A stretch of DNA of 64,000 bases from Streptomyces atriruber (GTDB lineage: Bacteria > Actinomycetota > Actinomycetes > Streptomycetales > Streptomycetaceae), in the NCBI RefSeq assembly GCF_001418325.1, contig NZ_LIPN01000060.1, positions 1-64,000 of the forward strand. Reading direction: 5' to 3'. Made by a program: the position numbers and the translations under genes. Below the pieces are notes generated by a model. That model saw only the letters and a list, made by a program, of their open reading frames with translations, did no database searches and was not told where the DNA came from. Shown here piece after piece: positions 33,743 to 54,203 of the stretch (position 1 is the first letter of the stretch; each line of letters opens with the position of its first letter).

Positions 33743-33760
33743 CCGGCCGCGCGCGAAGTG

Positions 33761-35575
33761 TCAGACGACGGTATCGGTCAGAACGTCGAAGGTGAGGCCG
33801 CTGGAGCGCTCGCCGTGGCCGGTGGCGCGCTGCGCGGAGAGCCAGACGACGACGCGGCCGTCCCGCCACCGGGTCCTGTTGAAGGCGACGGTGATCCGGG
33901 TGCCGGTGCGCGCGACCTCCTCCTCGTTGATGAAGTACGGCCGCCCCGCGTCCAGTCCCTCGCGCAGCAGGGCCGTGCGTGGCCGGACGGGGGTGCCGTC
34001 CACCTCGCTGGGCATCGCGGCGCGCTGGAGTTGCACGCTCCGGGTGTCCCCGGGCACGTGTACGGGGATGAAAGGGATCCAGTTCTCGGGGACGGGGCTC
34101 GCGATCTTGTAGGCGACGTCGGCGTGCGGTTCGTCGACGGGCCCCGGTGGGTGCAGCCTGCGCCGCTGGGCCAGGTGTTCGGCGGCTGCCTCGTCGCCGC
34201 CCCGCGGTCCGCCGTCCGCCAGTTGGACCGTCTGCTCGATGCCCCAGACGAGGTTGGCGTTCTCGTCCCGTACGAGCGCCACGTCCTGCAGCGCCGGGCC
34301 CGTGGCGACCTTCGGGGTGCCGGGCGGCAGGAGCAGGCCGGTCCCGCCGTCGGCGCCGAGCGTGAACATCGACCAGCGCTGCCAGTCCTGCCGCTCGCCC
34401 GTGCCCGCCGGGGTGATCCATCGGCGCTGTCCGAAGACGTCGGTGACCGCCAGTCCCTGGACGGTGGCGAGCGTTCCGGCGGGTACGTCGCAGGGGAGCT
34501 GGTACCAGTCGTTGCTGAAGACGAGTGCGAACTCCAGGAAGACGAGCCGGGCGAGGTCGGTGCTGTCGGGGGTGACGGCGGCGAAGTTCGTGTTCCCGTC
34601 CTCCAGCGCCCACCAGCGCGGCAGGGGCATCCCGGCGTAGCCGACGGGTGCCGGGAATACGGTGCGTCCCGCCGGTACGGGCGTCGGGCCCGTCCCGCCG
34701 AGCGAGCCGCCGGGATCGGTGGAGAAGGCGTACCAGTCGAGCTCACCGCCCGGGTACTCGGCGGCCGTCAGGACCTGCTCGCCCCCGCCGGGGGCGGGAG
34801 CGGAGACGGCGAAGGAGTGCTCCAGGCGCCGGGCGTTCCAGGTGGCGTCGCCGTCGGGCCGCTCCGCGGTCACCCCGGTCGGCTGGTCGATCAACTGGTC
34901 GAACCAGGACGTCAGCCGGGGTGCGAGCGCGTCCAGGGCCGCGCGGTGCGGGCCGGGCAGATCGATGCCGTCCGAGGCCCGCCCGCCCGCCTTGAGGTGC
35001 TGGTAGAGCAGGTAGCCGTCCATGCGGCGCCCGGCGAGCGCCTGCATGGTCGCCCAGACCTCCGGGTGCGCGACCAGTGCGCTGTCGGCCTCGTCGGCGG
35101 GGTCGGGCAGCGCCACCGGGTAGCGCGCGGTGAACTGCTCCGGTACGTCGTGCGCGCGGAAGACCGGCGGGTCGGACACCAGCTTGCGCCAGCGGCGGCC
35201 CAGCGCGAGGCGCAGATCGAAGGAGGTCCGCTCGGAACCGGACACGAAGGGCAGCGGACGGCGTTCGGCGACCGTCTCCAGGGGCCGGTCGGCGGGCAGC
35301 GGCTCGGCCGGCCCGCCCTCCGGACGGAACCGGCCCGGCGTGCTGGTCGTGATGGCGTACCGCGCGGTCACCGGCGAGCCCGCGTCGGCGCCCTGGAACT
35401 CGCCGAGCTGCCACTGGCGGGTCAGCAGCCACAGCGCGTCCCGTACCTCCGCCCGCAGCGCGCGGTCGAAGTCGGTGGTGCGCGGCCTGCCTTCGAGCCG
35501 GTTCCAGACGCCGACGGCGGGGTGCGCACGGTCCCGGAGCGCGCCGGCCAGATCCGTGATGCGTGGCTCAGTCAT
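33761..35575 (-). CDS. Large conserved protein of unknown function (604 aa), last gene of the 19-kb operon
   Basis: I do not assign a function. The protein begins with an alpha-helical stretch (DFDRALRAEVRDALWLLTRQWQLGEFQGADAGSP) and has tryptophan- and proline-rich beta-like segments, notably LPRWWALEDGNTNFA, LVFLEFALVFSNDWYQLPC and, near the C-terminus, PYFINEEEVARTGTRITVAFNRTRWRDGRVVVWL. I recall similar unannotated proteins in cyanobacteria and other bacteria. There is no signal peptide or membrane segment. Its ATG lies 8 nt inside the end of the 1753-aa gene, so it is translated together with it. It is the terminal gene of the operon and converges on the response regulator. Confidence 0.75.
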   Translation of the reverse strand: MTEPRITDLAGALRDRAHPAVGVWNRLEGRPRTTDFDRALRAEVRDALWLLTRQWQLGEFQGADAGSPVTARYAITTSTPGRFRPEGGPAEPLPADRPLETVAERRPLPFVSGSERTSFDLRLALGRRWRKLVSDPPVFRAHDVPEQFTARYPVALPDPADEADSALVAHPEVWATMQALAGRRMDGYLLYQHLKAGGRASDGIDLPGPHRAALDALAPRLTSWFDQLIDQPTGVTAERPDGDATWNARRLEHSFAVSAPAPGGGEQVLTAAEYPGGELDWYAFSTDPGGSLGGTGPTPVPAGRTVFPAPVGYAGMPLPRWWALEDGNTNFAAVTPDSTDLARLVFLEFALVFSNDWYQLPCDVPAGTLATVQGLAVTDVFGQRRWITPAGTGERQDWQRWSMFTLGADGGTGLLLPPGTPKVATGPALQDVALVRDENANLVWGIEQTVQLADGGPRGGDEAAAEHLAQRRRLHPPGPVDEPHADVAYKIASPVPENWIPFIPVHVPGDTRSVQLQRAAMPSEVDGTPVRPRTALLREGLDAGRPYFINEEEVARTGTRITVAFNRTRWRDGRVVVWLSAQRATGHGERSSGLTFDVLTDTVV

Positions 35576-38500
35576 GGTCGGCCTTCCAGCGCACGTTGGC
35601 GATCGAGAGATCGGTGCTGATGGTGATCGGCTGCGTGGTCGCGGACATGAGCGTGGCGGGCAGCAGGTGCCCGTACGCGCTGTCCTCCAGGTGTACGGGC
35701 TCCACGGCGCGGGCCCTCGCCATGTCGAAGGTCTCGTGGACCGCCGCCACCAGGTCGGAGGTGTCCCAGGTGCCGGTCCGTACGGGCGGTACGACGAGCA
35801 GCATCGCCTGGGGCGGTTCGGAGTCGGGACGGTCCACGTCTGCGGTGATCGCGGTGGTCTCCAGATCGGCGGGAATCACCTCGGTCCACTCGTCGAGCAG
35901 CAGTCCGCAGTGCGGCTCGTCCTCGTCCGCGCCGTCGGCGTAGTGCGCCGTGAACAGCAGCCTGTCCTCGGTGATCGCGGCACCGGGGGCGAACTCCATG
36001 CCGAGCCAGTGGTCGTTCTGGCGGAACGGGAGCTGGACGGGCGTCAGCCCGGGCTCCTCCTCGTCGTCCCGCAGCGCGGAGCCGAGCAGCACCGCACGCT
36101 CCCACAGCCGGGGCATCTCGCGGACCCGGGCGAGCCCGTGGATCCAGTCGTCCAGCGGGAAGTCCCGCTTCACGGGCGCCCGGGTCAGGTGCTCCACGAG
36201 CTTGTCGCTGTCCCTGCGCGCCTTGGCCCACTCGGCGGTGAGCGCGTCGGGCGGCGCGAACTCGGGAACGGCGAGGACTTCGGGGCCGAGCATCGCCCGG
36301 AGCGCCTCGGTGGCCGCCGCGACGCGGTCGGGGCCGGTGATCGCCCGGTCGTACTCGGCGAGCGCGGCATCGGCCGCGGCGAGCCGGACGGCGATGTCGG
36401 CACGCAACGCGCTTGCCCGGTCGAGCAGTTGCCTGCCGAAGGCGACGACCCGGTTCTCGACGGGCGTCAGGTCGAGCCCGGCGGGGTCGAAGCCGGTGAG
36501 CGGCAGCAGGTCGGTGACGTCGTCGAGCAGTGCGCCGAGCGTGCTCCGCGTCGTCCGTGCCTGCTGGTTCAGTGCCTGGAGGCGGTTGCGGAAGCTGGTG
36601 CGGCGGTTGCCGACGATGCCGCGCAACTGTCCGGGGCTGCTGGGGAGGGTGGCGGTCGGTGTGGTGGTGAGGAGCCGTTCGGCCTGCTGGAGCACACGGA
36701 AGCGTTCGCTGACGGGGGTGTTGGACGGCAGCGTGTCGTACTGGGCGAGGAGTGCGTCGGCGTCGGCCAGCGCCCTTGTCATGCGTGACGCGGTGGTGGC
36801 GACGGCGGCGAGCACATCGGCGTACGCGCTGCCGCGCCACTGGACGAGTTCGCCCCAGCCGCTGCGCACCATCCCGAACCCGGCCGCCGTGGTAGCGAGT
36901 TCGGCGTAACGGGTGAGGAAGCCGTCGATGGCGGCGAGCACCGCGGCCCGTGACGGCTGCGCGGGCGGGTCCGGGTAGAGGGGGGAGAGGTCGTGGACGA
37001 AGTCGGCGGCCTCTTCGTCGAGGTCGGCGAGGGAGCCGCGGACGGCGGCGGGCCGTGCGCGGGACAGCGACACCGCGTCGTCGGCGGCGCGGTCCACGGT
37101 CGCGGTGCCCGCGGCGGGCACGAGGTCGCTGGTGCGCAAGGGGCGTGAGGTGGTCAGCAGGGTGCGCAACGCGGCGATGAGCGGGGAGAGTTCGAAGAAG
37201 GTGACCTTGCCGGGGACGCGGACGGTGTGGCCGATGGTGAGGGCGGCATCGGGGCGCGGATGGTCCTTGTCGACCACGGTGCCGATGATCCGGTCCTCCA
37301 GGTCGGTCATCGCCTCGGCGCCCACTGAACGGACCGTCCACAGCAGGTCGATCGGGTCGAGCCCGAGGTCGTCGAGGGCGACGACGCGGCCCCGGGCCTG
37401 CCCGCTCACCGGGTCGGTCCAGGTGACGCGCGCGACGACGTCGTCGGCGTCGGGCAGCATCCCCGCCAGCCAGTCGTCGACTGCGGGTTCGGCCTGCGCC
37501 CTGGGGGTGGCGCGGCTCTCCGGGCGCAGCCCGGGCCGCAGCCGCAGTCCGAAGCGGTGGGTGAGGGTGGTGCCGCTGCGCGGGGTCTCGACCACGGAGG
37601 GCTGGGGCGGGAACCCGGCCTTGGCGTAGGCGTCGAGAGTCGCGGAGGCGCGCTCGGTGTTCCCGGCCAGCGCCTGATGGGCACTCTCGGCCACGGCGAG
37701 GTCGGCGAGGGCGTCGTGCACGTCCAGGAGCGCGTGGACCTCGGCGGTGACGGCCGCGGCCTGGCCGGCAGTGGCGGGCGGCAGTACGTCGCCGAGGCCG
37801 AACGGGTAGCTGTCCGGCACCCCGGTGCGGGTCACGTGCCGGACCAGGGCGAGGCCGTCGACGACGTTGCGTGCCTCGACCTGCTCGATCGGCACGGCAT
37901 CGGAGGGATCGATCGCCGTCTGGGGGATCTTCCCCGCGCGCAGGGGGAACCGTTCGCGCAGCGCGGTGATGAAGCGGTCGACCTCCGCCTCGACGTGCCG
38001 GTCGTGCAGGCCGCGCTCGAGGCGGTAGCCGAGGAGCGCGCCGAGCGGCTGGCCCTGTCGCAGCCCGTCGAGCAGGCTCAGCGCGATCCGTACCCGCCGC
38101 GAGCCGAGGTCCACGGCGAAGGTGCTGGGGTTGTCGGGGCCCGCGTTGGCCGTGTACCCGGCGCGCAGGACGGCGGCGGTCCTGGCGTGGCCGGGCGAGG
38201 GGGCGTGGACGAAGCCCGCGTTGTCCGGGTCGTGCAGGAGCGGCGCGCCACCGCTGAAGATCTCCGCGAGCTTGCCGGTCAGCTCCACCGGGGTGAGCTG
38301 CGCCGCGCCGGGCCGGACATCCTCCAGCCAGCCGTAGGCGCCGAGGTGCAGGCCCGGACGGGGCACCGTGGAGCCGGTGGCGCCGAACCGCAGTTCCTCC
38401 AGGCGCGCGGTGGCCAGGCCGGTGCGCCAGGCGTCGAGCCGGTAGGTGGCCAGGTCGAGGTGTTCGGCGAGCAGCCGCTCCAGGCGGGCTGTGGGCAGGT

Positions 38501-40829
38501 CGGCGAGGATGCCGAGTGCCGTGATCTGTTCGGCCAGTTCGGCGGTGGCGGGGGTGCTGCCGAGCACGCCCGGGATGAAGTCGGCGAGGAGCTGGTCGGG
38601 GCTGCCCGTCACGGCGGGCTCCGGCGAGTACAGCCTGCGGAAGCGGCTTTCGCTGGGCAGCGTCTGGCCGGGATCCGGTATCCGTACATGCACGAACGGC
38701 GGGTCGGCCGTGAGTTCGTCGGGGGCGGCCGCACCGGCGGCGACGGCGAGGTTGCGGGCGGCGTCGGCCCAGCCGACGAGCACCGCGTGCCGCAGCAGCA
38801 GGTACAGCAGCGCGGAGGGCGGGGCGTCGTCGGTGAAGCCGAGTTCGAGGCGGACCGTGTCCAGGCCGTGGGCCGCTTCCTGAGCGAGCCAGCGCAGGTA
38901 GTTGCGGCCGTCGGGGGTGCAGGCGTGCACCGGGTCGGTCTCCGACAGGGGCCGGTCGTCGATCAGCGGTGCCAGCAGCGGCTGTTGGAAGTCGGTGAAC
39001 AGTTTGCGCAGCAGGTCGGGGTCGTGATCCGGGCTGCCGTTGTGGTGCCCGAGCCTGGCGAGGAGCGCGCGCAGCGGTCCCGGCATGTTCAGCCGGTCCA
39101 GGGCGGGGAGTACGGCGGAGCCCCGGCCGCCCAGGTTCTCGCGGTTGAAGATGTCCTCGACGCTCTGCGCGTACCGCTGGTGGTACTCGGCCGAGGTGGG
39201 GTGCAGGGCGAGGATGTCCAGGAGGAGCTGGTGCGGGTCCTTGGCATCCTCACCGGGTTGCGGGGGCCTGCCGAGACGGGCGACCTTGTCGGACGCCGCC
39301 CGCCAGTCCTGTGCCGCCTCACCGAGCAGCCGGTCCAGGCCGCGTATATGGACCGCCGATTCGGGCCAGGTGAGGCGGGAGAACGCGGTGGTGGGCAGGA
39401 TGCCGTAGGGCTGGCCGCCGACCCGGACGGCCGGGACGGGGCCCCGCCCGGAGACGTAGCGCAGGAAGAAGTCCCTGGTCTCGCGGACGGTCTCGGCGTC
39501 GAGGACGGGGTGCAGGGCGGTCCGGAGGAAGGAGCCCCACGTCACCGGCCACAGCGCGGTGTTGGCGGCACGCGCCTCGCGCTGGTCGGTGCCGTCCGCG
39601 TGCGGCATCCCCTCGACGACGGCGGGCGGCAGGCCGAGCAGGTCGGTGAAGCGCCGCCCGTCGGTCCCGGTGGTCCAGTCGGCGGGCCGTGCGGCCTGTG
39701 CCGCCCCGGGACGCAGGGCCGATTCCGCCTCGTCGGCGTCGCTCTGTCCCGCCGGCATCCGTTCGGTGTTGTTGGTCGGGGTGCCCTGCGGCAGCAGCGC
39801 GTAGCCGTCGGGGCCGCGCAGTTGCTGCGTGATCAGGCCGGAGAGCTGCTGCGCGGACTTGACCGGGTCGGGCTGTGCGCGCAGGCCGAGGACGAGCAGC
39901 CGGTCGAGGCCGCCGCGCGTGCGGTCGTCCAGCGGAACGCGCAGTCCCATGCCGACGGCGACGGCGCGCTCGAAGTCCGTGAGCCAGCGCAGTTCGTCGG
40001 GGACGTGCAGCGCCCCGGTGACCGGATCCACGGAGACCTGGTCGGTGGCGGCGGGGTCGGGGCTCACGGGCAGCGTCTCGGGCACGGCCGCGCCGGTCGC
40101 GGACAGCACCTGAGCTCCGCCGACGTAGCCCAGTACCTGGAAGCGGTCGGGCAGCAGACGGGCACGCGCGGCGCGGGTCCAGGAATCGGGATCCGTGGCA
40201 CCGGCCGCGGGCGGCGGCAGGACCAGGAAGGCCACTTGTACGGCGTCGCCCGTACCGACGGGTGCTCCCTCGACGCCCGAAGGGCGCAGGGCCCGGATGG
40301 CGGCGGCCCGGGTGGCGCCGACCGCGGTCTGCAGCGCGGCGTCGGCCTGCCGAAGGAGGCGGCGGTCACCGTGCGCGCGCCAGACGGCGGTCCAGTACGC
40401 CACCGTCGGCCGCCGGTCCGCGGCGGCCACCGGCTTGGGGCCGACGACCACGAGCACCGTCGTGCCCGCGGGGACGGCGTCCGGCTCCTCGGCGGGGTTG
40501 GCCGGAACCCGCTGACCAAGGAGCCAGGCGGCGCGCCCCGGGGCGATCCGTCCCGCCAGTTCCTGCCGGGCGGCGCGGAGTGCCGCCGGGTCGCGCGCCG
40601 CGGCCCAGCGCGCCGTCCAGTAGGCGTCGAGGGCCGCGATCTCGGCCGGGGTGGGCCGGGATTCGAACTTGTCGACGGCCCATTCGTCGGGGAACACCCG
40701 GATCAGGAGCTCGGTCGGGGTGAACCGGGTCTCGATCCGTACGGGCGCGAGGAGGACGGGAAAGTCGTCGCTGAGCTGCGTCGTGGTCTGCTTAGGCGAC
40801 GTGGCCGGGGGCGTTGTCGAGTGCGTCAT
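35568..40829 (-). CDS. Giant conserved protein of unknown function (1753 aa)
   Basis: I do not assign a function. The N-terminal part (residues 23-53) reads FPVLLAPVRIETRF and then LIRVFPDEWAVDKFE, a recognisable opening of a poorly described family. Mid-protein blocks include VGGQPYGILPTTAF, LHLGAYGWLEDVRPG and LGALLGYRLERGLHD after VDLGSRRVRIALSLLDG. The C-terminal third is helical, with probable coiled coil (residues about 1430-1600), and then returns to beta segments. There is no signal peptide, membrane span or enzyme motif that I recognise. ATG 40829 overlaps the stop of the upstream 1068-aa gene by ATGA; the open frame extends to 41075, but that part is antisense-like. The size and tight coupling suggest a structural component of a complex. 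Confidence 0.75.
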   Translation of the reverse strand: MTHSTTPPATSPKQTTTQLSDDFPVLLAPVRIETRFTPTELLIRVFPDEWAVDKFESRPTPAEIAALDAYWTARWAAARDPAALRAARQELAGRIAPGRAAWLLGQRVPANPAEEPDAVPAGTTVLVVVGPKPVAAADRRPTVAYWTAVWRAHGDRRLLRQADAALQTAVGATRAAAIRALRPSGVEGAPVGTGDAVQVAFLVLPPPAAGATDPDSWTRAARARLLPDRFQVLGYVGGAQVLSATGAAVPETLPVSPDPAATDQVSVDPVTGALHVPDELRWLTDFERAVAVGMGLRVPLDDRTRGGLDRLLVLGLRAQPDPVKSAQQLSGLITQQLRGPDGYALLPQGTPTNNTERMPAGQSDADEAESALRPGAAQAARPADWTTGTDGRRFTDLLGLPPAVVEGMPHADGTDQREARAANTALWPVTWGSFLRTALHPVLDAETVRETRDFFLRYVSGRGPVPAVRVGGQPYGILPTTAFSRLTWPESAVHIRGLDRLLGEAAQDWRAASDKVARLGRPPQPGEDAKDPHQLLLDILALHPTSAEYHQRYAQSVEDIFNRENLGGRGSAVLPALDRLNMPGPLRALLARLGHHNGSPDHDPDLLRKLFTDFQQPLLAPLIDDRPLSETDPVHACTPDGRNYLRWLAQEAAHGLDTVRLELGFTDDAPPSALLYLLLRHAVLVGWADAARNLAVAAGAAAPDELTADPPFVHVRIPDPGQTLPSESRFRRLYSPEPAVTGSPDQLLADFIPGVLGSTPATAELAEQITALGILADLPTARLERLLAEHLDLATYRLDAWRTGLATARLEELRFGATGSTVPRPGLHLGAYGWLEDVRPGAAQLTPVELTGKLAEIFSGGAPLLHDPDNAGFVHAPSPGHARTAAVLRAGYTANAGPDNPSTFAVDLGSRRVRIALSLLDGLRQGQPLGALLGYRLERGLHDRHVEAEVDRFITALRERFPLRAGKIPQTAIDPSDAVPIEQVEARNVVDGLALVRHVTRTGVPDSYPFGLGDVLPPATAGQAAAVTAEVHALLDVHDALADLAVAESAHQALAGNTERASATLDAYAKAGFPPQPSVVETPRSGTTLTHRFGLRLRPGLRPESRATPRAQAEPAVDDWLAGMLPDADDVVARVTWTDPVSGQARGRVVALDDLGLDPIDLLWTVRSVGAEAMTDLEDRIIGTVVDKDHPRPDAALTIGHTVRVPGKVTFFELSPLIAALRTLLTTSRPLRTSDLVPAAGTATVDRAADDAVSLSRARPAAVRGSLADLDEEAADFVHDLSPLYPDPPAQPSRAAVLAAIDGFLTRYAELATTAAGFGMVRSGWGELVQWRGSAYADVLAAVATTASRMTRALADADALLAQYDTLPSNTPVSERFRVLQQAERLLTTTPTATLPSSPGQLRGIVGNRRTSFRNRLQALNQQARTTRSTLGALLDDVTDLLPLTGFDPAGLDLTPVENRVVAFGRQLLDRASALRADIAVRLAAADAALAEYDRAITGPDRVAAATEALRAMLGPEVLAVPEFAPPDALTAEWAKARRDSDKLVEHLTRAPVKRDFPLDDWIHGLARVREMPRLWERAVLLGSALRDDEEEPGLTPVQLPFRQNDHWLGMEFAPGAAITEDRLLFTAHYADGADEDEPHCGLLLDEWTEVIPADLETTAITADVDRPDSEPPQAMLLVVPPVRTGTWDTSDLVAAVHETFDMARARAVEPVHLEDSAYGHLLPATLMSATTQPITISTDLSIANVRWKADHD

Positions 40830-43800
40830 CGCGGCAGCATTTCCTGTGCGTGGGCGGCCACCAGGACCGGAACCTGGAAGAGGATGTAGGCGAGGTCGGC
40901 GGAGCTGAGCCCCGCGTGCCAGAGCGGCAGGTTCTCGTCCTCGGCGCGCTGTTCCCGCTTCTCCTGGTCGTCCTCGGAGCCGTCGAAGCCGACCAGGGGA
41001 ACGGTGACTCGGGGATCGAGTTCCAGGAACCCGCGTGCGTGCGGATCCACGTCGGTCCACGACAGGTCGTTCCACACCTCCACCGGGGTGGGCGCCGCGT
41101 CGTCGACCCCGAACCTCGGATCTCCGGGGCGCTCCTTGAGGATGAAGAACCAGCCCGCGTCGGCGGGCGGATCACCGCGCGCCTCGTCCGCGTCGAGGTC
41201 GAACCCCAGGAGCGTGATGTCGGGGTCGATCTTCGCCTCGTACAGCGGAAGACGTACCAGCGAGTGCGGTGGCCTGTCCTCGCCGGGAAGGGTGACGGGC
41301 ACCCGCTCCTGGGTGCGGTCGGGCAGGCCGTCGGCGCCGGTCGGCCACTCGGCCCGCTGCGCGTAGACGGCGGCCGTCGGATACCGCTTGAGCAGTTCGC
41401 CCCGCACGACCAGGACCAGGTCCTCCTTCTGAGGACCCGAGCCGACGGGTCGGTTGGCGTTCTGGCCGAGCCGTGCGGTGGTCGGCCAGGTGTGCAGCGG
41501 CGGGATGTCGTAGCACCGCTCGCGTCGGCGTTCGGCGCTCTCTCCCGGCCTGAGCTGCGCGGTCCGGGGGTCCCAGAACTGCCGGAAGGGACTGCCCCGC
41601 TGGTCGGTGGGGTACTCCCGCCAGAGCAGTTCGCGGGCCATCTCGTGGTTCAGGCCCGCGAGGTAGGCCTCGATGAACTCGCGGTTGTTGGCGAGCAGCG
41701 TGATCGAGTTCTGCGGAAGGAGGCCGAGGTTCGGGACGAACGCGTCCACCGACTGGTCGAGGATCGCCTGATAGGTGGGCAGGTCGAAGACCGGGTACGC
41801 CATCGCCTCGATGAAGTCGTCGGCGAACGGACGCAGCCGCTCGGGCAGTCCGACCGAGCCCAGCAGCGTCCTGGGCACCGTCGTGTCGGCGCGCAGCGCG
41901 GACAGCACCGAACCGGTGGCCAGGGCGACTTCGAGCCGCGCGCGTGGCGGGGTCTTTCCCACGGCGGTGGCGACGTTCAGGCCCTGGTACAGCTCGCGCA
42001 GCGCACCCTTGAAGCGGGCCGCCTCGGGGCTGTCGGTGGCGCCCTGTCCCGGCACCACCGGGTCGTTCAACTCGCGCAGCCGGAAGTCGGGGCTGTGCGG
42101 CAGGCCGTCGACCGGGTCCGTCGCGGGAGCCCCGGGGTGCAGCTCCTCGGCGAGCCGTTCCGCCGTGACGATTCCGGCCGGGGCGGTCTTGGCAGGTGCG
42201 GCCGTCACCGCCGCCGCAGGGTCGTCCATCCGGGGCACGAGCGCGTCCGGCGGGCGCTCCGGGGTGAAGGGCAGCGTCCGCATCAGCCGCGATCCGGGCC
42301 GGGTGATCCGCCGCATCGCCGGGGAGAGCGGCGCGCCCGCCACCTTGCTGGCGGCCACCCGGAACCCGATCGCGACCTTCTCCGCCTGCCCGTTGAGCGC
42401 CGCGGCCGCCGCGGCCGGGGCCACGGCGGCCGTCACCCGCGAGTGCGCGGGCGCCGTCAGCCGGAGCGAGCGCCCCGACGGGGCGGCGGCCGGCTGCGCC
42501 ACGGAGGTGCCGCCCGCCGGGTCCAGGTGTTTGGTCTGGAGTACGTGTCCGACTTCCCGCGCCAGTTGCGCGGCGCGGATCCGCGCGTTGGCGGCCAGCA
42601 CATCGCCGACCTGCGCCCAGGCCGCGGCCATCAGCTCTTCCTGGCGTGCCCGGACGGCCTGCGTGCCCAGCTGTGCGGCGACACGGAAGCGCGGGTCGAG
42701 GTTGAGCCTGTGGACCCAGTTGCGGTTCTCCGGCGAGGGGACGGGTGTGCCGTCCTGACGGGTCAGCAGCCTCGGGGTGAGCGCGTGCCACCTGCCGTAC
42801 AGCGAGGGCGTGAGGAGAGGGTCGGACGCCGCTGCGAGCGGCGGGGCGGTGATCGGCGGCGCCTCGAGCGCGGCGTGCGCCGCGGCCGGGGTGTGGCGCT
42901 GATAGTCGTCCGCCAGGTTGACCAACGCGGCCAGGGCGCTCTGGAAGGGGTGCGGGTACGGGGCCGCGGGCGGTGGCCGGTCGTGGAAGTTGTCCCAGTT
43001 CTCCGCGTCGTCGGGCGGCGCGCCCGGCGGCTGCGGCACCTTGAGGGCGCCGCCCATCGGCAGCACGCCGCCGAGTGCGGCCGGTGTCAGGATCCCGGGC
43101 AGGCCGAGGCCGGGCGAGCGGTGGACGTCGATGTCCCTGCGCCCCACCCGCGGGTCGGGCCGCTGGGGCCGCAGCAGGCGTACGAGGGCCTCGAAGTCGC
43201 CGGTGCTGCCCGTGGTGAACTGCCAGCGGTGGTAGTACGGCAGGCGCCCCGAGGCCGGTCGGCCCGGGTAGGGCGGGCCCCACGCCAGGTACACGGCGCC
43301 GGGTGAGCCCGTCGGATCGAGGCCGAGCCCGGCCAGCCGGCCGGTCTCGAACGCCGGTACGAGGAAGGCCTCGTACGCGGTGTCCGGGCGGAGCCTGCGC
43401 GGACACATCAGCCGCGAGCAGGCGTTGTCCGCGTCGGCGCGGAGCACCTCGGCGAGCGCGGCAAGGGCGTGTGGCGTGCTGTCGGAGGCGACCGGACCCG
43501 TCAGTGAGCCGTTGACGTGCACATGCGCCCAGGCGCCGAGCTGCTCGGGCCGGGGCAGGGTGGTGGCGGTGTCCCGTACGGCGATCACGGGAAGCGGCCC
43601 GTTCCCCTGCGGGCTCTCGGTGAACTCCGGGGCCGCGCCGTCCGCTCCGGTCCCGGCGGTGAGTACGACGAGGGCGAGCCAGGGGGCGAGCCGCTTGGTG
43701 ACGTCGTCGGGCGGGGCCGGGCTGTAGCGCCAGGGGAAGTCCTCGTCGCAGAACTCGATGTGGGCGAGGTAGTTCGGCTCGTAGTTGGTGGTGGAGGGCC

Positions 43801-45198: not shown

Positions 45199-45284
45199 CG
45201 AAGCTCCTCGGGTACGCCGTCCGTCGTACGGATGGTGGTGCCTGCCGGATCGGGGGGCTCCCCGTGCCGGGTCCGGGCAGTCAT
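45195..45284 (-). CDS. 29-residue micro-ORF linking two kelch genes
   Basis: This 90-nt frame starts at ATG 45284, whose ATGA overlaps the stop of the 1590-aa gene, and ends at a TGA (45197-45195) that overlaps the ATG of the kelch gene, again ATGA. The peptide begins MTARTRHGEPPDPAG and ends VPEELR; it is hydrophilic with no recognisable domain. The double ATGA join is exactly what a translated gene or a coupling relay would need, and it fills what would otherwise be the only large gap in the operon. Whether the peptide itself is functional is unknown. Confidence 0.5.
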   Translation of the reverse strand: MTARTRHGEPPDPAGTTIRTTDGVPEELR

Positions 45285-48200
45285 GGGATCAGCGCCTCCC
45301 CGGTGGCCGCGAGCTGGAGCGGCCCGGGGCCGGGCGCCGCAGCGCCCGCCGCCGCGATGCCTCCGGTCACCAGCACACGGTCGTCGCCGAGTTCGGCCAC
45401 CGCGGTGGACCACCGCCCCTGGGAGAGGCCCGCGATCCTGGTCCAGGCGCCCGCGGCCGGGTCGTACGCGAGCACGCTCCGGAAGCCCGCCGTGCGGCCG
45501 GGGCCCGTGGTACCGCCGATGACCAGGACGTCCCCCGCGCGCGTGAGCAGCGCGCGGTGCCGGGCGCGGCCACCGGGCATGGGGACCGCGGGAGTCCAGG
45601 TGCCGGAGAGGGGGTCGTACGACTCGGCGGAGGCCAGGGCGCGGGGATCGAACGTACCGTCCGCCGCGACGACCGCCTCGCCGCCCGTGACCAGCACCCG
45701 GCCGTCGGGCAGCAGCGTCGCCTGGTGACTCGTGCGGGCCGTGTGCAGGCTTCCGGTGGGGCTCCAGGTGCCACTGGCCGGGTCATAGAGCTCGCAGTGC
45801 GCGAGCGCCGCGTCACCCGGGCCGCCCGTGGGCAGCGCTCCGCCCACGACCAAGACCCGGCCGTCGCGAAGGAGAACGGCCTGATGGCCGGTACGGGCGT
45901 CGTTCATCGGCGCCGTGGCCGTCCAGGCGCCGGTCGCGGGGTCGAACAGCTCGGCGGAGCGGAGCGCGCCGAAGCCCTGCCCGCCGCCCCGGGCGGCACT
46001 GCCACCGGCCGCGAGCACCCGGCCGCCGGACAGCCGCGTCGCGGAGTGCGCGAACCTGGCCGCGCCCATCGGCCCCGACCGCGTCCATGCCACGGCGGGC
46101 GGGTCGAACACCTCGGCGGAGGCCAGGGGAGTGCCGTCCGCGCCCCGCCCTCCGGCCGCGAGCACCCGGCCGTCGGAGAGCCGCGTGACGGTGTGCAGAC
46201 GGCGGGCGGCCGCCATCGCGACCGACGCGGTCCACACACCGGCCGTGGGGTCGAAGAGCGCCGTCGCGGCAACGGCCGTACCCGCGGCGCCGGTTCCCCC
46301 GGCGAGCAGCGCCTTGCCCGTGGCGAGGAGCACCGAATCCACCTGCGCCACCGGGGTGGGCAGCGTCCCCGTGTCCGCCCAGGTGCCGGGGACGAAGGGC
46401 GCGACCGCCGCCTCGGAGGCGGGGATGACGTGCAGCAGCCCGTCCAGCGCCGGGTCGGCGGCGACGAAGTCGGCGAGGGCGTCGGCCGCCGTGGCCTGGT
46501 TCCGGAAGTCCACCGGGGCGCCCGCGGCTCCGCGGCCGAGCGTGCGCGGCGGCAGCGCGGGCACGTTGCTGCGTACGTACGCGACGACGAACCGCTGGTC
46601 GGCGACGCGCACGGTGTCGGCCGTCGCGAACGGCTGGCGCAGCAGCGCCTCCCGCCTCGACAGCGGTGACCTGCTCGTGCTGCTTCCCTGGAGCAGCCCG
46701 TCGAAGACGGCGGGGCTGACGCTGTGGAACCGCTTGGTGCGCCCGGCGGAGAGCCGCGCGGGCGGTTCGGTCCCCGGGCCGTCGGCGTCGGCCGCTCCGC
46801 GCGCACCGTTCGCGGCGGGCGCGCTGTCGAGGATGTGCAGCTCGTAGCGGGCACTGCGGCGCACCACGCGTGCGGACGCCAACGTGCCCGCGGCGGCGGT
46901 GAGTTCGAGACCGGTGTCCTGTGTCTCGTACGCGGGACTCGACAGTTTCGCCGCGTCGCTCATGTCCTGATACTGGGCCATGGCGAACTTGTCGCCGGTG
47001 TCGGAGACGCGTACGAGCCCGCTGCCGGGCGCGGGCGCGACGGTGAACCGCTTGCCGTCGGCCGTGCGCCGCGGGCCGACCCTGTCGAGGCGGACGTTGA
47101 GCGGCAGCGCCCGTTGCTGGACGGACAGCGTGCCCAGCGGATGCAGCACGAGGTCGTCGGACGGGGGCAGTTGGCGGAGGCTGACCAGGGGCTTGCCGCT
47201 GCCGGTGGGCAGGCGGGTCTGCCAGCCCTCGGTCTTGCGCAGTTCGGCGGCGAGCAGCGGCAGTACCAGGACGGGCGGAAGCGTGGTGGTCAGGCTCTCG
47301 CCCCAGGTGATGTCGAAGTTGGCGGAGATGGAGAAGAACAGGAACCCGATGGATCCCCTGCCGTGCGCCCGCCAGGGCGCCGGGCCTTCGAGCCGGAACC
47401 GCAGGTCGATGCTGAACACGCCGACCCCGAACGCCTTGAGCGAGACCGAGGCGCTGATGGCGATGTCGAACCGGAACGGGTTGAACTGGAACAGCGCGTC
47501 GAAGCTGAGGTGCCCCTCGATGCCGAAGCTGCCGAAGCCCAGCCGGAGTTCCGCCTTCGAGCCGAACTGCACGGTGTTGCTGGTGATGGCGAAGTAGCCC
47601 GAGATCCTTATCAGTTGCCTGTCGCGGTGCAGGATGTCGAGGGACACCCGCTCGGGCACGGGGAAGGGCAGCGGCGGCGCCTTGTACGAGGGGTGGAAGC
47701 CGCCGACCGTGAGCACCAGGTCAGGATTGTCGCCCCAGGCCACCAGGATGCCCATGCCGCCGTCGAGAGGCATGGTCAGCACGTGCGAGTCCACGAGCCG
47801 GGCCTCGAACCAGAGCCGGTTCTTGCCCGGTTCGAGGGCGCCGAAGAAGTCGACGCGCAGATCGAGGAGGGGCAGCTTCAGGTTCGGCAGGGTGGCGCGC
47901 AGGGTGCCGAGGACGGCGATGTCGCCGGGGATCTCGATGATCAGCCCGAGGGAGATGCTCACCAGCGTCGGAGTGGCCCAGCCGATCTTGGCCATGGGGC
48001 CGATGAGGAACGTGCCCTGCTCGGGCGGGAAGAACGCGTTGAGGTCCGACAGGACGCGGGGCGCGTTGGCGATCACGTCGCGCGGGAACATCACGGACTC
48101 GATCGAGCCCGTCCGGATGCCCTCCGCGAGCGCCTGGAGGTTCATGCCCCGGTTCAGTCCGATCAGGCCGCCGACCGCGAGCAAGGTGAAGCCGTAGCCG

Positions 48201-50053
48201 AGCTGGATGCCCTCGCCGAAGTCGGCGGTGAGCACGACGAGGAGCGAGAACCCCTTCGAGCCGTCCGGCATCCTGGTGCTCACCAGGCCGATCGCCTTCA
48301 GCGCCAGGAAGTCGGCGAACTCCAGCTCCATCGCGCCCGCGTACTCGCCGCGCGCGGCGTCGAAGGCGAGGAAGCCGCCACCCCGCACCACGCTCGTGTC
48401 GATCGAGAGGCCCGCGCCGCCGGGCGGTTTGAAGCCGAGCGACACGTCGAGCGGGCCGAGGTTCCCGTCCAGCCCCGGGCGTCCCTCGAACAGGGCGGTG
48501 AGGCCGACCTTGTCCACCACGGCCGTGACGGGCCCGAGTTGCGCCTTGAACGTCGCGCCGAGACCGACCGGCACGGCACCGCCCGAGGGCGACACGGAGA
48601 TGCTCAGGCTCTGCACCTCGACCGGACCGATCCGTCGGCCCACCGGGATCTGGAGCTCCAGATTCGAGGTGCCGCGGAAGTACAGGCCGTCGCGGTGCGA
48701 GACGCCGAGGGTCAGGTCGCCGCCGATGCGGAACCCGTCGGCGGGCAGGACGGCGGCGAGGAATCCGTCCGCGTCCTCACCCGCCTTGAACACGAACTCA
48801 AGCCCTTGGAGGTCGAACTCGGCGAAGACGTCCACCGGGTCGTCCTGGCCGCCGTCGATCCGGACGCCGCCCGTGCCCGAGAGCGCGCGGAACTGGAGCC
48901 GCGTACCGTCCGGGGTGCCCAGGAGCAGCACGGGCTGCCCGTCGGCGGCCATGCTCTCGGCCGTGACCTCGATCGCACCCTTCGCGTGCCCGGGTGCGCC
49001 GCCCGACTCGAAGCCGGTGATCACGTCCACGCCCTCGCCGGGCCTGGCGAGGAGCGCCACTCCGCCCTGGAGGTCCAGCGCGCTGCGGACCGTGACGGCG
49101 ATGCCGCACGCCAGCTCGAACCGGAGGCCGAGCGAGCCGGTCAGCGAGGGGAGCAGCGCGAGCCCCGGCGCCCCGCCGGTCACGGCCGGAGGCACCCGTA
49201 CGAGCCGGACCGCGCCGCGCGCCCGCCCCTCGCCCTCGTCGCCGCCCACGGACTGGTCGAAGGCGGCGAAGGTGAGCGCGGTCGCCGTGGGGCCCAGCGG
49301 GTCCTGGCGCGGACCCTGCACCGCGGTCTGCGCGCCGTCGGACAGCGCCGCGATGCGCACGTCGAAGCCCATGGCCAGGAAGAGGTTGTCGAGCTGGGAG
49401 GCCAGCTCGTCGAAGTCGAGGTCGGGGCCGCCCCAGCCGTAGGCGTTCTGCAGCACGAGCGACGGATCGTCGAGCACCTTGGGCACGTCGGCCACATCGA
49501 GCGTCATCCGGGTGTGGGACGGACGGCTGCCCGTGGGCGGCACGTAGGCCGTCTTGATGATCCCGAACGCGCGCAGCCCGAAGCCCACGGAGGGGTGGAA
49601 GCGCTGGAGGTAGGTGATGACCAGATGGTCGAGGAGCTGCCGCGGGAACCGTTCGCGGAACCCGTCGGCCCGCAGATGCGCCGGGATGGCCGAGTCGGGA
49701 GCGTCGGCGATGGCGCGGATGGCGGTCACCAGGCCCTGGACGGCGGCGAGTACGCGGGCCGCGTCGTCGGCGGAGACGTCGGCGGCGCTCTCCGACTTGG
49801 CGGGCACCGAGGCGCGGAGTCCGGGCGCGCCCTCGTTGAGCCCGCCGTCGCCGAGGAGTCGGCGCAGGCTGTCGAAGAGCGTGTCCACGGCGGTGCCGAG
49901 CGCGCGCAGCGGGGCCGGGGGTTCGGCTGCCGTCCAGCCGAGTTCGTTCAGGAGGCCGACGAAGGCCTCGGGGGAGGCGACCGCCTCGCGCAGGGGCAGC
50001 AGCGCCTGCCCGATCTCGGCGACGAGCTTGTCGAAGGTGCCCTGTTCAGCCAT
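45281..50053 (-). CDS. 1590-aa beta-rich protein with C-terminal kelch array (DUF6603-like)
   Basis: Three parts are visible. Residues 1-150 are helical (FDKLVAEIGQALLPLREAV). Residues about 470-920 are long amphipathic beta strands with GGFLAFDAARGEYAGAMELEF, LLVVLTADFGEGIQLGYGF, GGLIGLNRGMNLQAL, FGPMAKIGW-like LIGPMAKIGWATPTLVSI and LTVGGFHPSYKAP, which match my memory of the DUF6603 family. Residues about 1220-1580 are kelch repeats (HTVTRLSDGRVLAAGG, ELYDPASGTWSPTGSL and so on), about six blades. There is no signal peptide; the alternating hydrophobic strands could suit a large beta-solenoid or barrel-like assembly, an inference only. It starts 1 nt after the stop of the M64-like gene, with its own stop overlapping the micro-ORF. 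Confidence 0.8.
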   Translation of the reverse strand: MAEQGTFDKLVAEIGQALLPLREAVASPEAFVGLLNELGWTAAEPPAPLRALGTAVDTLFDSLRRLLGDGGLNEGAPGLRASVPAKSESAADVSADDAARVLAAVQGLVTAIRAIADAPDSAIPAHLRADGFRERFPRQLLDHLVITYLQRFHPSVGFGLRAFGIIKTAYVPPTGSRPSHTRMTLDVADVPKVLDDPSLVLQNAYGWGGPDLDFDELASQLDNLFLAMGFDVRIAALSDGAQTAVQGPRQDPLGPTATALTFAAFDQSVGGDEGEGRARGAVRLVRVPPAVTGGAPGLALLPSLTGSLGLRFELACGIAVTVRSALDLQGGVALLARPGEGVDVITGFESGGAPGHAKGAIEVTAESMAADGQPVLLLGTPDGTRLQFRALSGTGGVRIDGGQDDPVDVFAEFDLQGLEFVFKAGEDADGFLAAVLPADGFRIGGDLTLGVSHRDGLYFRGTSNLELQIPVGRRIGPVEVQSLSISVSPSGGAVPVGLGATFKAQLGPVTAVVDKVGLTALFEGRPGLDGNLGPLDVSLGFKPPGGAGLSIDTSVVRGGGFLAFDAARGEYAGAMELEFADFLALKAIGLVSTRMPDGSKGFSLLVVLTADFGEGIQLGYGFTLLAVGGLIGLNRGMNLQALAEGIRTGSIESVMFPRDVIANAPRVLSDLNAFFPPEQGTFLIGPMAKIGWATPTLVSISLGLIIEIPGDIAVLGTLRATLPNLKLPLLDLRVDFFGALEPGKNRLWFEARLVDSHVLTMPLDGGMGILVAWGDNPDLVLTVGGFHPSYKAPPLPFPVPERVSLDILHRDRQLIRISGYFAITSNTVQFGSKAELRLGFGSFGIEGHLSFDALFQFNPFRFDIAISASVSLKAFGVGVFSIDLRFRLEGPAPWRAHGRGSIGFLFFSISANFDITWGESLTTTLPPVLVLPLLAAELRKTEGWQTRLPTGSGKPLVSLRQLPPSDDLVLHPLGTLSVQQRALPLNVRLDRVGPRRTADGKRFTVAPAPGSGLVRVSDTGDKFAMAQYQDMSDAAKLSSPAYETQDTGLELTAAAGTLASARVVRRSARYELHILDSAPAANGARGAADADGPGTEPPARLSAGRTKRFHSVSPAVFDGLLQGSSTSRSPLSRREALLRQPFATADTVRVADQRFVVAYVRSNVPALPPRTLGRGAAGAPVDFRNQATAADALADFVAADPALDGLLHVIPASEAAVAPFVPGTWADTGTLPTPVAQVDSVLLATGKALLAGGTGAAGTAVAATALFDPTAGVWTASVAMAAARRLHTVTRLSDGRVLAAGGRGADGTPLASAEVFDPPAVAWTRSGPMGAARFAHSATRLSGGRVLAAGGSAARGGGQGFGALRSAELFDPATGAWTATAPMNDARTGHQAVLLRDGRVLVVGGALPTGGPGDAALAHCELYDPASGTWSPTGSLHTARTSHQATLLPDGRVLVTGGEAVVAADGTFDPRALASAESYDPLSGTWTPAVPMPGGRARHRALLTRAGDVLVIGGTTGPGRTAGFRSVLAYDPAAGAWTRIAGLSQGRWSTAVAELGDDRVLVTGGIAAAGAAAPGPGPLQLAATGEALIP

Positions 50054-50054
50054 G

Positions 50055-52685
50055 TCATGCCCTCGGGTACTGGTGCGCGTCGAGCGGGGCGTGCTGGGCG
50101 GGATCGATGAGGTTGACGATCAGCCACTTGCAGAGGAAGCAGAACATGCCCCGCAGGTCCGCGTCGTTGGTCGTGCCCTTGTCCTGGCCGCGCATCTTGC
50201 ACTCGCCCGACGCCCGGTAGAAGCCGCCGGCGAAGTGGTTGCCGCCTTCGAAGATCCCCACCATCTGGTACGCGAACTTCGGTGGCACGAAGCCCGGTAT
50301 GCCGATGGGCAGATCCGTCTCCTCCTCCCGCTTCCCGAACGGCTTCGTGGTGTCCCGGTTCCTGTTCAGCGGGCCGTGGCTGCGCTGGTTCGCGGGGGCG
50401 GGGTCGGCGACGAAGTCCCGTACCTTCTTGTCCACCACGAAGACCGGAAGCCCCGAGAGGTCGGTCCGCTGGACGAAGACCGCCGAGCCCTTCTTGAAGA
50501 CCGGCAGCTGAGCGACGGGTCCCGGGGTCTGGAGGAAGAGGGTGCCCTGCTTCTCGTCGGGCCTGGTGGCGATGGTCAGGTTGGCCAGCACGTCACTGGG
50601 CGTCGCCTTCAGCGGAAGCTGCCGGTTGTCGGCACCCGTCGAGAAGTCGTGCACGGTCACCTTGGCGTTGTCCTGCCACGCCTGGACCCATTTCGCGATG
50701 TCGGCGGTGCCGACCGTGACTTCGAAGATGTCGGACACCAACGGCACCGAGGGCACCAGGAGTTTCCCGGATACGCGCATCCGCGGCACGGCGAACCATT
50801 TGATCTTGTCGGGGTTGAGCTTGCGGTCCTGCGGGGGCGCTCCCTGGTGCAGGAAGGTGAGCTTTGCCAGATTGTCGAACGGCAGGTCGCGGGTGGGGTC
50901 GTTGTCCCCCTGCTGGTCGCCCCCGAAGTCCTCGTACTCGTCTCCCAGGTTGAAGGAGTGGGCGAACTCGTGGGCCACCTTGTTGACGAGGTGGTCGATC
51001 TCGGTGATGCCCAGGGGATTCGTCGGCAGGACGGGCGGCGGTGTCCTTGTCCGCACCGGCCTGGCCCCCGGCACGGCGGAGAACTCGACTTTCCCCTGCC
51101 GGCCCACTGTCGAGGCCGTCAGAGTGCCCCGGTTGAAGGCCGTGCCGCCGAGGAGCGGGTCGTACGCGATGATCGCGACCATCCCCCGGCTCTTGCGGAA
51201 TTTGGTGTCGTCGGGCACCCAGTTCTTCCCGATGGGAGGGTTCGGCGGCTCGGAAAGACGGAGCCCCTCCAGATATCCGAGAACGAAGTCTCCCGGATTC
51301 GTCGCGTTGCTGTTCGCGTACACCTCGGGAGCGTGCCTGCGCGGATCGAGTTCCAGCGTCTGATGCCCGTCGACCCGGTAGAACTCATAGACCCGGTCGA
51401 TGAATTCCTTCAGATTCGGCGCGTTCGGCGTATCGCTCGCAGGAGGCTGGACCGCGGGCTCCCCCTGGCCGTTGAACCTGCTCCGGTCGGCCCGGCGGCG
51501 TCCCAGATACAGTCCGTAGAAGGTGTCCGACGCCTCGATGAATCCCTCCGCCTGGTGCTCCTTCCAGGTCGCGATCACCAGATCGGTCGCCTTGCCCTCG
51601 ACGAAGTCGGTCAGGCCCTGGCCCTTCCAGAGGTCCCTCAACTGCTGTGGACTCCGGCTCTCCCCACGTTGGGGAAGGCCCACGCGCTCGACCAGTTGCT
51701 GGACGCTGTAGCTGTTCTCCGGAAAGCCGCTCTGATCCGACTCGGGAATGCGCCGGCCGATGAAGTCGCGTCCCGCCTGTCCGGCCCTGTCCACGACGCG
51801 GGGACCGCAGGTGACGAGCTGCTGCTCGGACGGCTCGAACACGGAGAAGACGTTGAAGCTCTTGCTCAGCAGTCCGTACGGCTGATGCCGCGGCTTCTCG
51901 AACATGTCGCGCACGGTGCGCTGGACGATTCTGTCGAACAGCTGGGCGTCCTTGGCCTCGAATCCCTCCGCTACGAAGACCATGTTGACCTGGTCCTCGT
52001 GGTTCACCACGTCCGTGGCCCTGACCCGCTTCAGCGTGGTCCGCGGCTTCGCGTGGTCGACCACGCGCACCGGCAGGGTGTTGCTGATGGCCGTGCCCTT
52101 GAGCGTTCCCGAGACGGTCACCGGAGCCGTCGTCTCCGCCGTTCCCCGCAGCCTTCCCCGCGGAGCGATCACGACGTTCGGACTCGGCGACGTCAGATCG
52201 ATGTAATCGTGGCCCGTGATGTCGCCGACCGCGTCGGTGCCTGCCGCCGGGTGTTCGCTGAACCGGGCGTACAGCGAAGGCTGTGCGTGTGCGAAATTGC
52301 TGTCCTTCGTCGTCGTGATGGATTTGTTTCCGAACCACCAGTCCTCGATCTTCTCGTGCACCTGGAGCCTGCCCACGACCACCCCGAAGCCGCCGTTGAC
52401 GGTGATCTGGAAGAGATAGACACCCGGCTCGGTGGCCGTGACGATTCCGGAATTGCTGACCGAAGGAAGATTCGTGAGCCGACTTCCCGTCGGGTGATAC
52501 GGCGCGAAGAAGTGGAAAACGCTGCCGTTCGTCCGGTCCGTCAGCACGAACGGCTTGGGCGCGGCCTCGGAGAAAGTACGGCTGAAAACCTGAATCTTGA
52601 GCGGGAGATTTCCGGTGAGCACGAGGTGCAGATCAAGGTGCGGAAACACCGGAAGATCCGCAGTGATGGGAACCGTACTCGACAT
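50055..52685 (-). CDS. M64-like zinc metallopeptidase (876 aa), first gene of the 19-kb operon
   Basis: The N-terminal 220 residues are beta-rich (VYLFQITVNGGFGVVVGRL). A peptidase domain follows, opening NMVFVAEGFEAKDAQLFDRIV (about 234-254), which matches the M64 IgA-peptidase opening. The zinc site is at residues 572-576, HEFAHSF, followed by NLGDEYED, the family's extended HExxH plus DEY motif. All catalytic residues appear intact. M64 enzymes are usually exported, but no signal peptide is evident here. ATG 52685 has GGGAG 5 nt upstream. The gene body and the 236 nt before it contain more A/T than the neighbours. It heads the operon of large unknown proteins, so it may process one of them or an outside target. 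Confidence 0.82.
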   Translation of the reverse strand: MSSTVPITADLPVFPHLDLHLVLTGNLPLKIQVFSRTFSEAAPKPFVLTDRTNGSVFHFFAPYHPTGSRLTNLPSVSNSGIVTATEPGVYLFQITVNGGFGVVVGRLQVHEKIEDWWFGNKSITTTKDSNFAHAQPSLYARFSEHPAAGTDAVGDITGHDYIDLTSPSPNVVIAPRGRLRGTAETTAPVTVSGTLKGTAISNTLPVRVVDHAKPRTTLKRVRATDVVNHEDQVNMVFVAEGFEAKDAQLFDRIVQRTVRDMFEKPRHQPYGLLSKSFNVFSVFEPSEQQLVTCGPRVVDRAGQAGRDFIGRRIPESDQSGFPENSYSVQQLVERVGLPQRGESRSPQQLRDLWKGQGLTDFVEGKATDLVIATWKEHQAEGFIEASDTFYGLYLGRRRADRSRFNGQGEPAVQPPASDTPNAPNLKEFIDRVYEFYRVDGHQTLELDPRRHAPEVYANSNATNPGDFVLGYLEGLRLSEPPNPPIGKNWVPDDTKFRKSRGMVAIIAYDPLLGGTAFNRGTLTASTVGRQGKVEFSAVPGARPVRTRTPPPVLPTNPLGITEIDHLVNKVAHEFAHSFNLGDEYEDFGGDQQGDNDPTRDLPFDNLAKLTFLHQGAPPQDRKLNPDKIKWFAVPRMRVSGKLLVPSVPLVSDIFEVTVGTADIAKWVQAWQDNAKVTVHDFSTGADNRQLPLKATPSDVLANLTIATRPDEKQGTLFLQTPGPVAQLPVFKKGSAVFVQRTDLSGLPVFVVDKKVRDFVADPAPANQRSHGPLNRNRDTTKPFGKREEETDLPIGIPGFVPPKFAYQMVGIFEGGNHFAGGFYRASGECKMRGQDKGTTNDADLRGMFCFLCKWLIVNLIDPAQHAPLDAHQYPRA

Positions 52686-52921
52686 GATCGCTCCCGGCGG
52701 TCGATCTTACGGACGGCGAAGGGTTCCGATCCTCCCACCGCCCTCAGATCAACAGAAGAGCTAATGCGGCGTTGTTTGAATATTCGGCAAGGCCGGGAAA
52801 CGTCTTTGCCTGGAATTTATCGCTCCAGTCGGAACAGAACACTCATTCAACAGCGCTATGAGCTGCCTGCCTCGTGCACGGCGCCCCTCCCGGCAGGGCT
52901 GGGCGAGGCCCACCACTTCTG
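52686..52921. promoter_or_regulatory. AT-rich intergenic leader of the 19-kb operon
   Basis: The gap between the LysR stop and the M64-like gene is clearly richer in A/T than the rest of the window (especially 52750-52860). It should hold the operon promoter on the minus strand. A TTGCCG with CATTAG 18 nt further on is possible, but no pair stands out, and I see no gene or clear palindrome in it. Confidence 0.4.
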
Positions 52922-53770: not shown

Positions 53771-53839
53771 GCCGTGAGGTTATCGCCGAATGCCGAACGG
53801 ATCTTGGACGCGAAGGCGGACGCCCTTGAGAATTGCCCC

Positions 53840-54157: not shown

Positions 54158-54203
54158 AGCGGCCTGAAGCGGCGTGAAACCGTGTGATCCGGCATGAACG
54201 CCG

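Follow-up and report, generated by a model that had tools for sequence, protein, structure and literature searches.

A conserved four-gene core with an exchangeable front enzyme in Streptomyces atriruber, other bacteria and haloarchaea

Extracellular contractile injection systems (eCISs) are large gene blocks of bacteria and archaea that combine a conserved chassis with varying cargo. Bacterial gasdermin operons place a varying protease beside a conserved partner, and in polymorphic toxin and effector systems unrelated catalytic domains share one trafficking-type domain. Finally, the IgA peptidase family M64 (structures 3p1v and 4df9) includes IgA-cleaving metallopeptidases of gut bacteria. 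Here, we compare with these systems an operon of six large genes, A to F, and a 29-codon micro-open reading frame (micro-ORF) on the minus strand (positions 52685 to 33761) of a 64,000-nucleotide stretch of Streptomyces atriruber DNA (contig NZ_LIPN01000060.1, positions 1 to 64,000; hereafter, the window). The operon is one copy of a widespread bacterial and archaeal system that consists of a four-protein core, B-D-E-F, and a swappable enzyme encoded in front of it, in a position that we call the slot. B contains a full Pfam domain of DUF6603 (PF20248), a family that Pfam labels as being of unknown function. A, the slot enzyme of the window, is like the M64 peptidases in its Pfam match and its HExxHxxxLxDEYE motif but differs from the gut-bacterial enzymes in its length of 876 amino acids (aa), in having no evident signal peptide and in being coupled to B-F. 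Of the sheath, tube and baseplate families of phage-tail origin that mark eCISs, none was found among the proteins tested, namely, the six window proteins (Pfam and PHROGs), 26 homologues of D, E and F and 67 slot proteins (Pfam), the flanking genes having been scanned in part. The contrast with gasdermin operons is that the slot also holds nonproteases and that four large partners take the place of one small pore protein; none of the six window proteins had a gasdermin match in Pfam or PADLOC.

A scan for F in one genome per species confirmed at least 576 loci among 587 candidate stretches, and the loci studied here are the best 80 of these, i.e., those closest to the F of the window; together with 10 loci from annotated records and the window itself, they make up a set of 91. 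The 80 scan loci come from ten phyla (Actinomycetota, 42; Pseudomonadota, 11; Bacteroidota, 9; Chloroflexota, 8; Cyanobacteriota, 4; Acidobacteriota, 2; and Myxococcota, Gemmatimonadota, Vulcanimicrobiota and Bacillota, 1 each), and plasmid-borne relatives of F were seen in haloarchaea, Rhizobium, Paraburkholderia, Gemmatirosa, Nocardia and Streptomyces (15 records). At 75 of the 91 loci, the genes follow each other in the order B-D-E-F on a single strand. Since 12 of the 16 remaining loci, including the lone Myxococcota and Vulcanimicrobiota loci, start at a contig end, the complete set is found in eight of the ten bacterial phyla, as well as on two haloarchaeal plasmids. Stop-start overlaps of 4 nucleotides (nt), with gene starts set by a simple script, were counted at 54 of 75 B-D joins, 34 of 79 D-E joins and 37 of 88 E-F joins. 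In these order and overlap counts, "B" means a match to the profile of the window's B, the kelch part of which also matches C; for actinobacterial loci, C and the C-D join may therefore have been counted as B and B-D. DUF6603 was tested separately and was present in 31 of 32 and in 29 of 30 genomes picked for having F. At one Streptomyces locus (L004), E and F share one open frame of 2118 aa, and in Rhizobium D and E are each divided into two coupled genes. Because order and overlaps recur in phyla this distant, they are not due to chance. The idea that unrelated large genes simply came to lie side by side in a Streptomyces chromosome would have to account for an arrangement kept in eight bacterial phyla and haloarchaea, and for common block edges between genomes (see below), and we regard its probability as practically negligible.

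The preliminary description of the operon had taken it for a candidate undescribed system, and had asked whether its genes recur outside Streptomyces. They do so as B-D-E-F, in order, across the eight bacterial phyla and the haloarchaea; this supports a system that is inherited together, and scattered single homologues are not the pattern. In a library of 5.39 million papers (most subscription journals and all bioRxiv preprints lie outside it), neither a mention of DUF6603 or PF20248 nor a description of the gene set was found, and B-D-E-F is apparently new as a system. What had to be given up was the notion of a fixed set of all six genes plus the micro-ORF: the M64 peptidase is one of many slot enzymes, kelch sequences, whether as gene C or as the tail of B, were confined to Actinomycetota among the loci seen, and the micro-ORF is variable or missing in relatives.

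The system is of low prevalence. Of 296 evenly drawn actinomycete genomes, nine gave a match to DUF6603, seven to D (all of which hold DUF6603) and eight to F, three of the F matches being weak or short and two of these three (G061 and G269) coming from genomes without DUF6603. In the genome of the window and in four others, a stretch of about 15 kb takes in B, D and F.

Several loci depart from the common form. On a plasmid of Streptomyces anthocyanicus (L011), about the last 73 residues of E and a full-length F make up an operon remnant. On the haloarchaeal plasmids L013 and L020, F ends in a lamin tail domain, and E has grown to 2322 and 3225 aa, respectively. The B of L191, a locus of the window's type (type I), is 2203 aa long, with about 1000 extra N-terminal residues that by eye consist of strand-rich repeats; fusion of an enzyme to the N terminus of this B was considered and rejected, there being no match to a slot enzyme. 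A prophage or viral origin was likewise rejected, since scans of viral contigs gave no relatives among 20 candidate stretches for F, 11 for B, 29 for D and 66 for E. One record labeled "Bacteriophage sp." (MT835531.1) contains D, E, F and a DUF6603 fragment; since it is an unverified faecal scaffold, which may be mislabeled bacterial or plasmid DNA, it does not make the system viral.

The second pillar of the argument is the slot itself. From the DNA upstream of B, we collected 68 proteins at 58 loci, the window included, and labeled them by Pfam, motifs, BLAST clusters and two seed profiles. Trypsin-like proteases (21, all with a GDSG-type serine motif), subtilases (14 by Pfam match and 13 by our own profile) and M64 peptidases (11, all with the HExxHxxxLxDEYE motif) were joined by two tyrosinases, two PhoD proteins, two phospholipase D (PLD) proteins and one each of an M14 carboxypeptidase, a galactose-oxidase-like protein and an SCO1-like protein, with about 13 of the 68 remaining without a firm class. 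Reading by eye only, we noted an alpha/beta hydrolase (L136), caspase-like motifs (L153, L163 and L164), a beta-lactamase-like motif (L151) and a metallo-beta-lactamase fold (L193). The haloarchaeal plasmid copy L013 has a PhoD-like enzyme in the slot. The A of the window was detected in 1 of 150 Streptomyces genomes, its own. An apparent subtilase-B fusion (L217; open frame of 2162 aa) was rejected, as it resolved into two genes in different frames.

Slot types were placed on a quick tree of F, with support from the Shimodaira-Hasegawa-like approximate likelihood ratio test only, for 48 of its 77 rows, those with unassigned or unseen slots being left out (the subtilase label of L029 was taken from the reading frame and the tyrosinase label of L097 from its BLAST cluster and by eye). 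On these 48 rows, the 8 types require at least 19 changes, the minimum possible being 7, and supported sisters carry unrelated enzymes: trypsin-like versus subtilase (L044 and L048), trypsin-like versus M64 (L051 and L052) and PLD versus trypsin-like (L035 and L047). A conserved core with an exchangeable front enzyme is thus well supported.

Since trypsin-like, subtilase and M64 peptidases account for 46 of the 68 slot occupants, one could also think of an intracellular defence or cell-death system, in which a slot protease activated by infection or stress would cleave or release one of the B-F proteins in the manner of gasdermins; the low prevalence, the transfer as a block and a TIR-domain gene nearby (positions 55171 to 56865 of the window) would suit such a role. 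This explanation loses ground because other occupants of the same slot, namely, tyrosinase, PhoD phosphatase, phospholipase D and galactose oxidase, do not fit proteolytic activation. Moreover, PADLOC-DB 2.0.0 returned no family for any of the six window proteins at an E value of 0.1, and no pore-like protein was recognized (the structure models being those of D and F). On balance, we consider a defence function unlikely.

The proteases of the slot have more in common than their position. The profile of the trypsin-like occupants matches 8 of the 13 subtilase occupants, at the C terminus only and over about 100 to 150 residues (independent E values of 9e-30 to 3e-20). Subtilases and trypsins have unrelated folds, and the match must therefore represent a separate, shared domain, which comprises about 120 residues around the consensus RRVTxAWHR. 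Among the 68 slot proteins, 28 carry it (20 of the 21 trypsin-like proteases and 8 of the 13 subtilases). In 32 system-bearing genomes, in each of which up to 139 candidates were scored, 17 copies were found in 13 genomes. A DUF6603 domain follows 16 of these copies at a distance of up to about 3 kb; the remaining copy is close to the start of a contig, in the one genome that gave no DUF6603 match. This proximity to DUF6603, the C-terminal placement and the lack of a common Pfam match in the slot proteins scanned set the domain apart from the trafficking-type domains of polymorphic toxins. Judging from sequence and position, it is likely a docking or loading domain for the chassis. At five loci (L132, L140, L154, L155 and L159), the slot contains two tandem trypsin-like proteases, 9 of which 10 carry the domain. 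A match of the domain to the chain THR2 (8g9k; E = 0.0003), in which no stretch passed alone, was not used as evidence.

The operon moves between genomes as a block. Its similarity to Streptomyces flavofungini forms one alignment (positions 33770 to 52742; 86%), outside which a blastn search, on both strands, of the fetched 37-kb S. flavofungini piece against positions 20000 to 33760 and 52760 to 64000 of the window gave no match, and the edges of the block coincide in Streptomyces aurantiacus (33771 and 52743). Between the edges, identity to the S. flavofungini sequence is about 90% for most of B-F, 76 to 79% for part of B and 65 to 77% for A; the synonymous substitution rate (dS) is 0.74 for A and 0.21 to 0.28 for B-F. 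Because A diverges more than B-F, the slot gene has evolved faster or partly on its own, even among the closest relatives. Ratios of nonsynonymous to synonymous substitution of 0.19 to 0.34 for B-F and 0.49 for A, in the same comparison, indicate that all six genes are under purifying selection.

As for the genes of the window (Table 1), the preliminary description was confirmed in its count of six large genes and a micro-ORF on one strand and in all of its joins: A and B are separated by 1 nt, 4-nt ATGA overlaps connect B with the micro-ORF, the micro-ORF with C, C with D and D with E, and E and F overlap by 8 nt. Its account of their content, an M64-like A, a B with DUF6603 and kelch repeats, a kelch protein C and three proteins without a known family, stood as well. 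B scores 415.9 bits against PF20248 (Pfam gathering score, 27 bits). A scores 40.3 bits against the M64 family of Pfam (gathering score, 26 bits), with the best PF09471 stretch covering residues 225 to 307 only; its motif HEFAH..LGDEYE, of which HEFAH begins at residue 572, is intact, and it matches the metallo-endopeptidase structure 3p1v with an E value of 3.6e-6. By these matches, A would be an M64-like zinc peptidase. The claim that the proteins have neither a signal peptide nor a membrane span held only in part: in a hydropathy scan, a crude method and no signal-peptide predictor, none of the six showed an N-terminal signal, but hydrophobic 19-residue stretches of B (1.94) and D (1.62) exceed the usual cut of 1.6.

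Table 1. Features of the operon in the window (positions within the 64,000-nucleotide stretch)
Feature	Position	Strand	Remarks
A, M64-like zinc metallopeptidase, variable enzyme slot	50055..52685	-	876 aa; PF09471 E 2.8e-10
A, HEFAH zinc motif codons (residues 572-576)	50958..50972	-	motif reading
B, DUF6603 protein, core gene 1	45281..50053	-	1590 aa; PF20248 E 2.9e-124
DUF6603 domain of B	46952..48640	-	
Kelch array, B C terminus (about residues 1240-1567)	45353..46336	-	Kelch_4 E 2.5e-34
Micro-ORF between B and C	45195..45284	-	29 codons + stop
C, stand-alone kelch protein	44029..45198	-	389 aa
D, core gene 2, no known family; distant relative in type II loci	40826..44032	-	1068 aa from ATG
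E, core gene 3, no known family	35568..40829	-	1753 aa from ATG
F, core gene 4, no known family	33761..35575	-	604 aa
Block common with Streptomyces flavofungini	33770..52742	-	86% identity, 19,054 aligned columns

D, E and F matched no Pfam, NCBIfam or PADLOC family, and their sole match in PHROGs, that of E, was at chance level (E = 0.02). Nor was a family recognized in 26 of their homologues (9 of D, 8 of E and 9 of F, chosen beyond the nearest relatives of the window), except for isolated hits of low significance, a single one in Pfam (E = 0.0035) and two in NCBIfam, the best of which (E = 0.0005) was that of one member to a xenorhabdolysin subunit model. AlphaFold2 models of D and F, with a predicted local distance difference test score of 82.4 and 80.7, respectively, gave no Foldseek match to PDB at an E value of ≤0.001, which does not prove that the folds are new, and the best VIA Z scores were 4.7 for D (94 residues) and 2.6 for F (58 residues). 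The former, a weak PcoC-like match (root mean square deviation, 2.9), and a match of E to a three-helix bundle (E = 0.0098) were not used as evidence.

The micro-ORF has 29 codons in the window and 15 in S. flavofungini, its position is taken by an unrelated 50-codon GTG frame at L023, and it is missing in the relatives L025 and L039. With length and sequence this variable, it is probably a spacer that couples the translation of B and C and not a conserved peptide. Two neighboring genes lie outside the block common with S. flavofungini, namely, a LysR-type regulator gene (positions 52922 to 53770) on the same strand, which ends 236 nt upstream of A, and the TIR-domain gene mentioned above (PF13676; E = 1.4e-6).

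The reading of the system that we favor, with a probability of roughly one in two, is that of a transferable B-D-E-F chassis with exchangeable hydrolytic enzymes, acting outside the producer after release or export. B, D, E and F would be the subunits of a large conserved assembly, inherited and transferred as a translationally coupled unit, and the first gene of the operon would encode the exchangeable enzyme that this chassis carries: the M64-like zinc peptidase in the window and, in other copies, enzymes of unrelated folds, mostly peptidases. Subtilases and trypsin-like proteases would dock to the chassis via their shared C-terminal domain. We suppose that assembly and loading take place in the cytoplasm and that the chassis releases or exports the enzyme, which would act outside the producing cell, where its targets would be proteins, lipids or phosphate esters in other cells or in the matrix. 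The enzyme classes seen in the slot are usually secreted by bacteria, and it is this, together with the exchange of the enzymes and the fact that evident signal peptides are mostly missing, that leads us to propose action outside the producer. Using the same hydropathy scan, a signal-like N terminus was seen in none of 64 D, 63 E and 76 F homologues, and among 31 slot proteins one PhoD protein (L160) passed the cut and another (L162) came close.

A number of observations weigh against this proposal. A physical complex of B, D, E and F is suggested by gene order, overlapping joins and the one fused E-F frame, all of them features of the DNA, and export by the chassis is likewise conjectural. 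Four loci (L011, L059, L083 and L086) are without a complete set, with no evident cut to explain it. The slot type is clustered on the F tree: its 19 changes lie below the mean of 26.9 obtained by shuffling, with 0 of 300 shuffles as low, and, as they also lie above the minimum of 7, the slot is partly inherited and often swapped. M64, M14, PhoD, PLD and tyrosinase occupants, as well as 5 of the 13 subtilases, gave no match to the shared C-terminal domain, so that docking through it would not be general; the A of the window is itself without it. In the 296 actinomycete genomes the domain was not found at all, a result that says little, as up to 15 candidates were scored per listed genome; with both genome searches having scored only part of the candidates, the domain is at most tentatively specific to this system. 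A slot enzyme signal may be hidden, given that 31 proteins were scanned and that their starts were set by script, and 4 of 32 partial B homologues do have a signal-like N terminus. Finally, a hydrophobic 19-residue stretch that exceeds 1.6 was seen in 42 of 64 homologues of D, 26 of 63 of E and 3 of 76 of F, as well as in 24 of 32 partial homologues of B; being common in D, E and B homologues, such stretches make membrane contact possible.

Such contact would suit a machine that handles lipids in the envelope, with the strand-rich DUF6603 perhaps shaped into a groove or barrel for lipids and the slot occupants modifying the cell's own envelope. Besides the hydrophobic stretches of B, D and E homologues, the long, strand-rich repeats read by eye in the B of L191 and the PhoD and PLD occupants, which act on phosphate esters, would agree with this role. 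Given that the system occurs in Gram-negative bacteria, Gram-positive bacteria and archaea, whose envelopes differ, we hold it to be very unlikely. Another explanation dispenses with delivery altogether and takes B-F for the scaffold of a cytoplasmic processing or storage complex, on which a housekeeping or developmental enzyme is held; it draws on the translational coupling of the genes and on the D, E and F homologues having no signal-like N terminus. Housekeeping would not, however, be expected to exchange chemically unrelated enzymes on one scaffold or to be of so low a prevalence (DUF6603 in 9 of 296 actinomycete genomes), and the slot enzyme classes are usually secreted, which makes the cytoplasmic complex distinctly unlikely in our view.

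The proposed chassis has a distant counterpart in a second lineage of DUF6603 loci, type II, with the genes B'-D'-E'-F' (L183 to L188, L190, L193 to L195 and L197 to L199), from Bacteroidota, Actinomycetota and Cyanobacteriota. Their giant B' proteins reach 3928 aa. By hhalign, B' is related to B with a probability of 99.8 and D' to D with a probability of 92 (E = 7e-7); homology of E and F with E' and F' was not detectable (probability of 0.2 or less). Metallo-beta-lactamase-fold proteins are among the type II slot occupants. Directly after the E'-type gene, L185 (4-2095) and L187 (16105-18888) encode a protein with an endosialidase-type chaperone domain (Peptidase_S74), above the cut-off in L185 and just under it in L187. 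This domain is a mark of trimeric phage fibres and tail spikes, and the type II proteins hint, if thinly, at a fibrous, externally acting structure. Extending the favored reading, one may tentatively picture an enzyme-carrying nanomachine in two ancient lineages, type I as in the window and type II with fibre-like proteins, characterized by C-terminal docking in some enzyme classes, exchange of enzymes from strain to strain, block transfer and the delivery or display of signal-free hydrolases outside the cell, a picture to which we give well under even odds.

D, E and F co-occur in many bacterial phyla and in haloarchaea, and, because a convincing match to a Pfam or NCBIfam family or to a solved structure was found for none of them, a widespread machine has apparently gone unnoticed. 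Even should the idea of delivery prove mistaken, it needs explaining that two unrelated protease folds, encoded beside this locus, have a C-terminal domain in common. If, on the other hand, the chassis does take unrelated enzymes, some of them by way of a docking domain, what it delivers, where and to whom becomes a testable question, and the system may perhaps serve as a programmable protein carrier.

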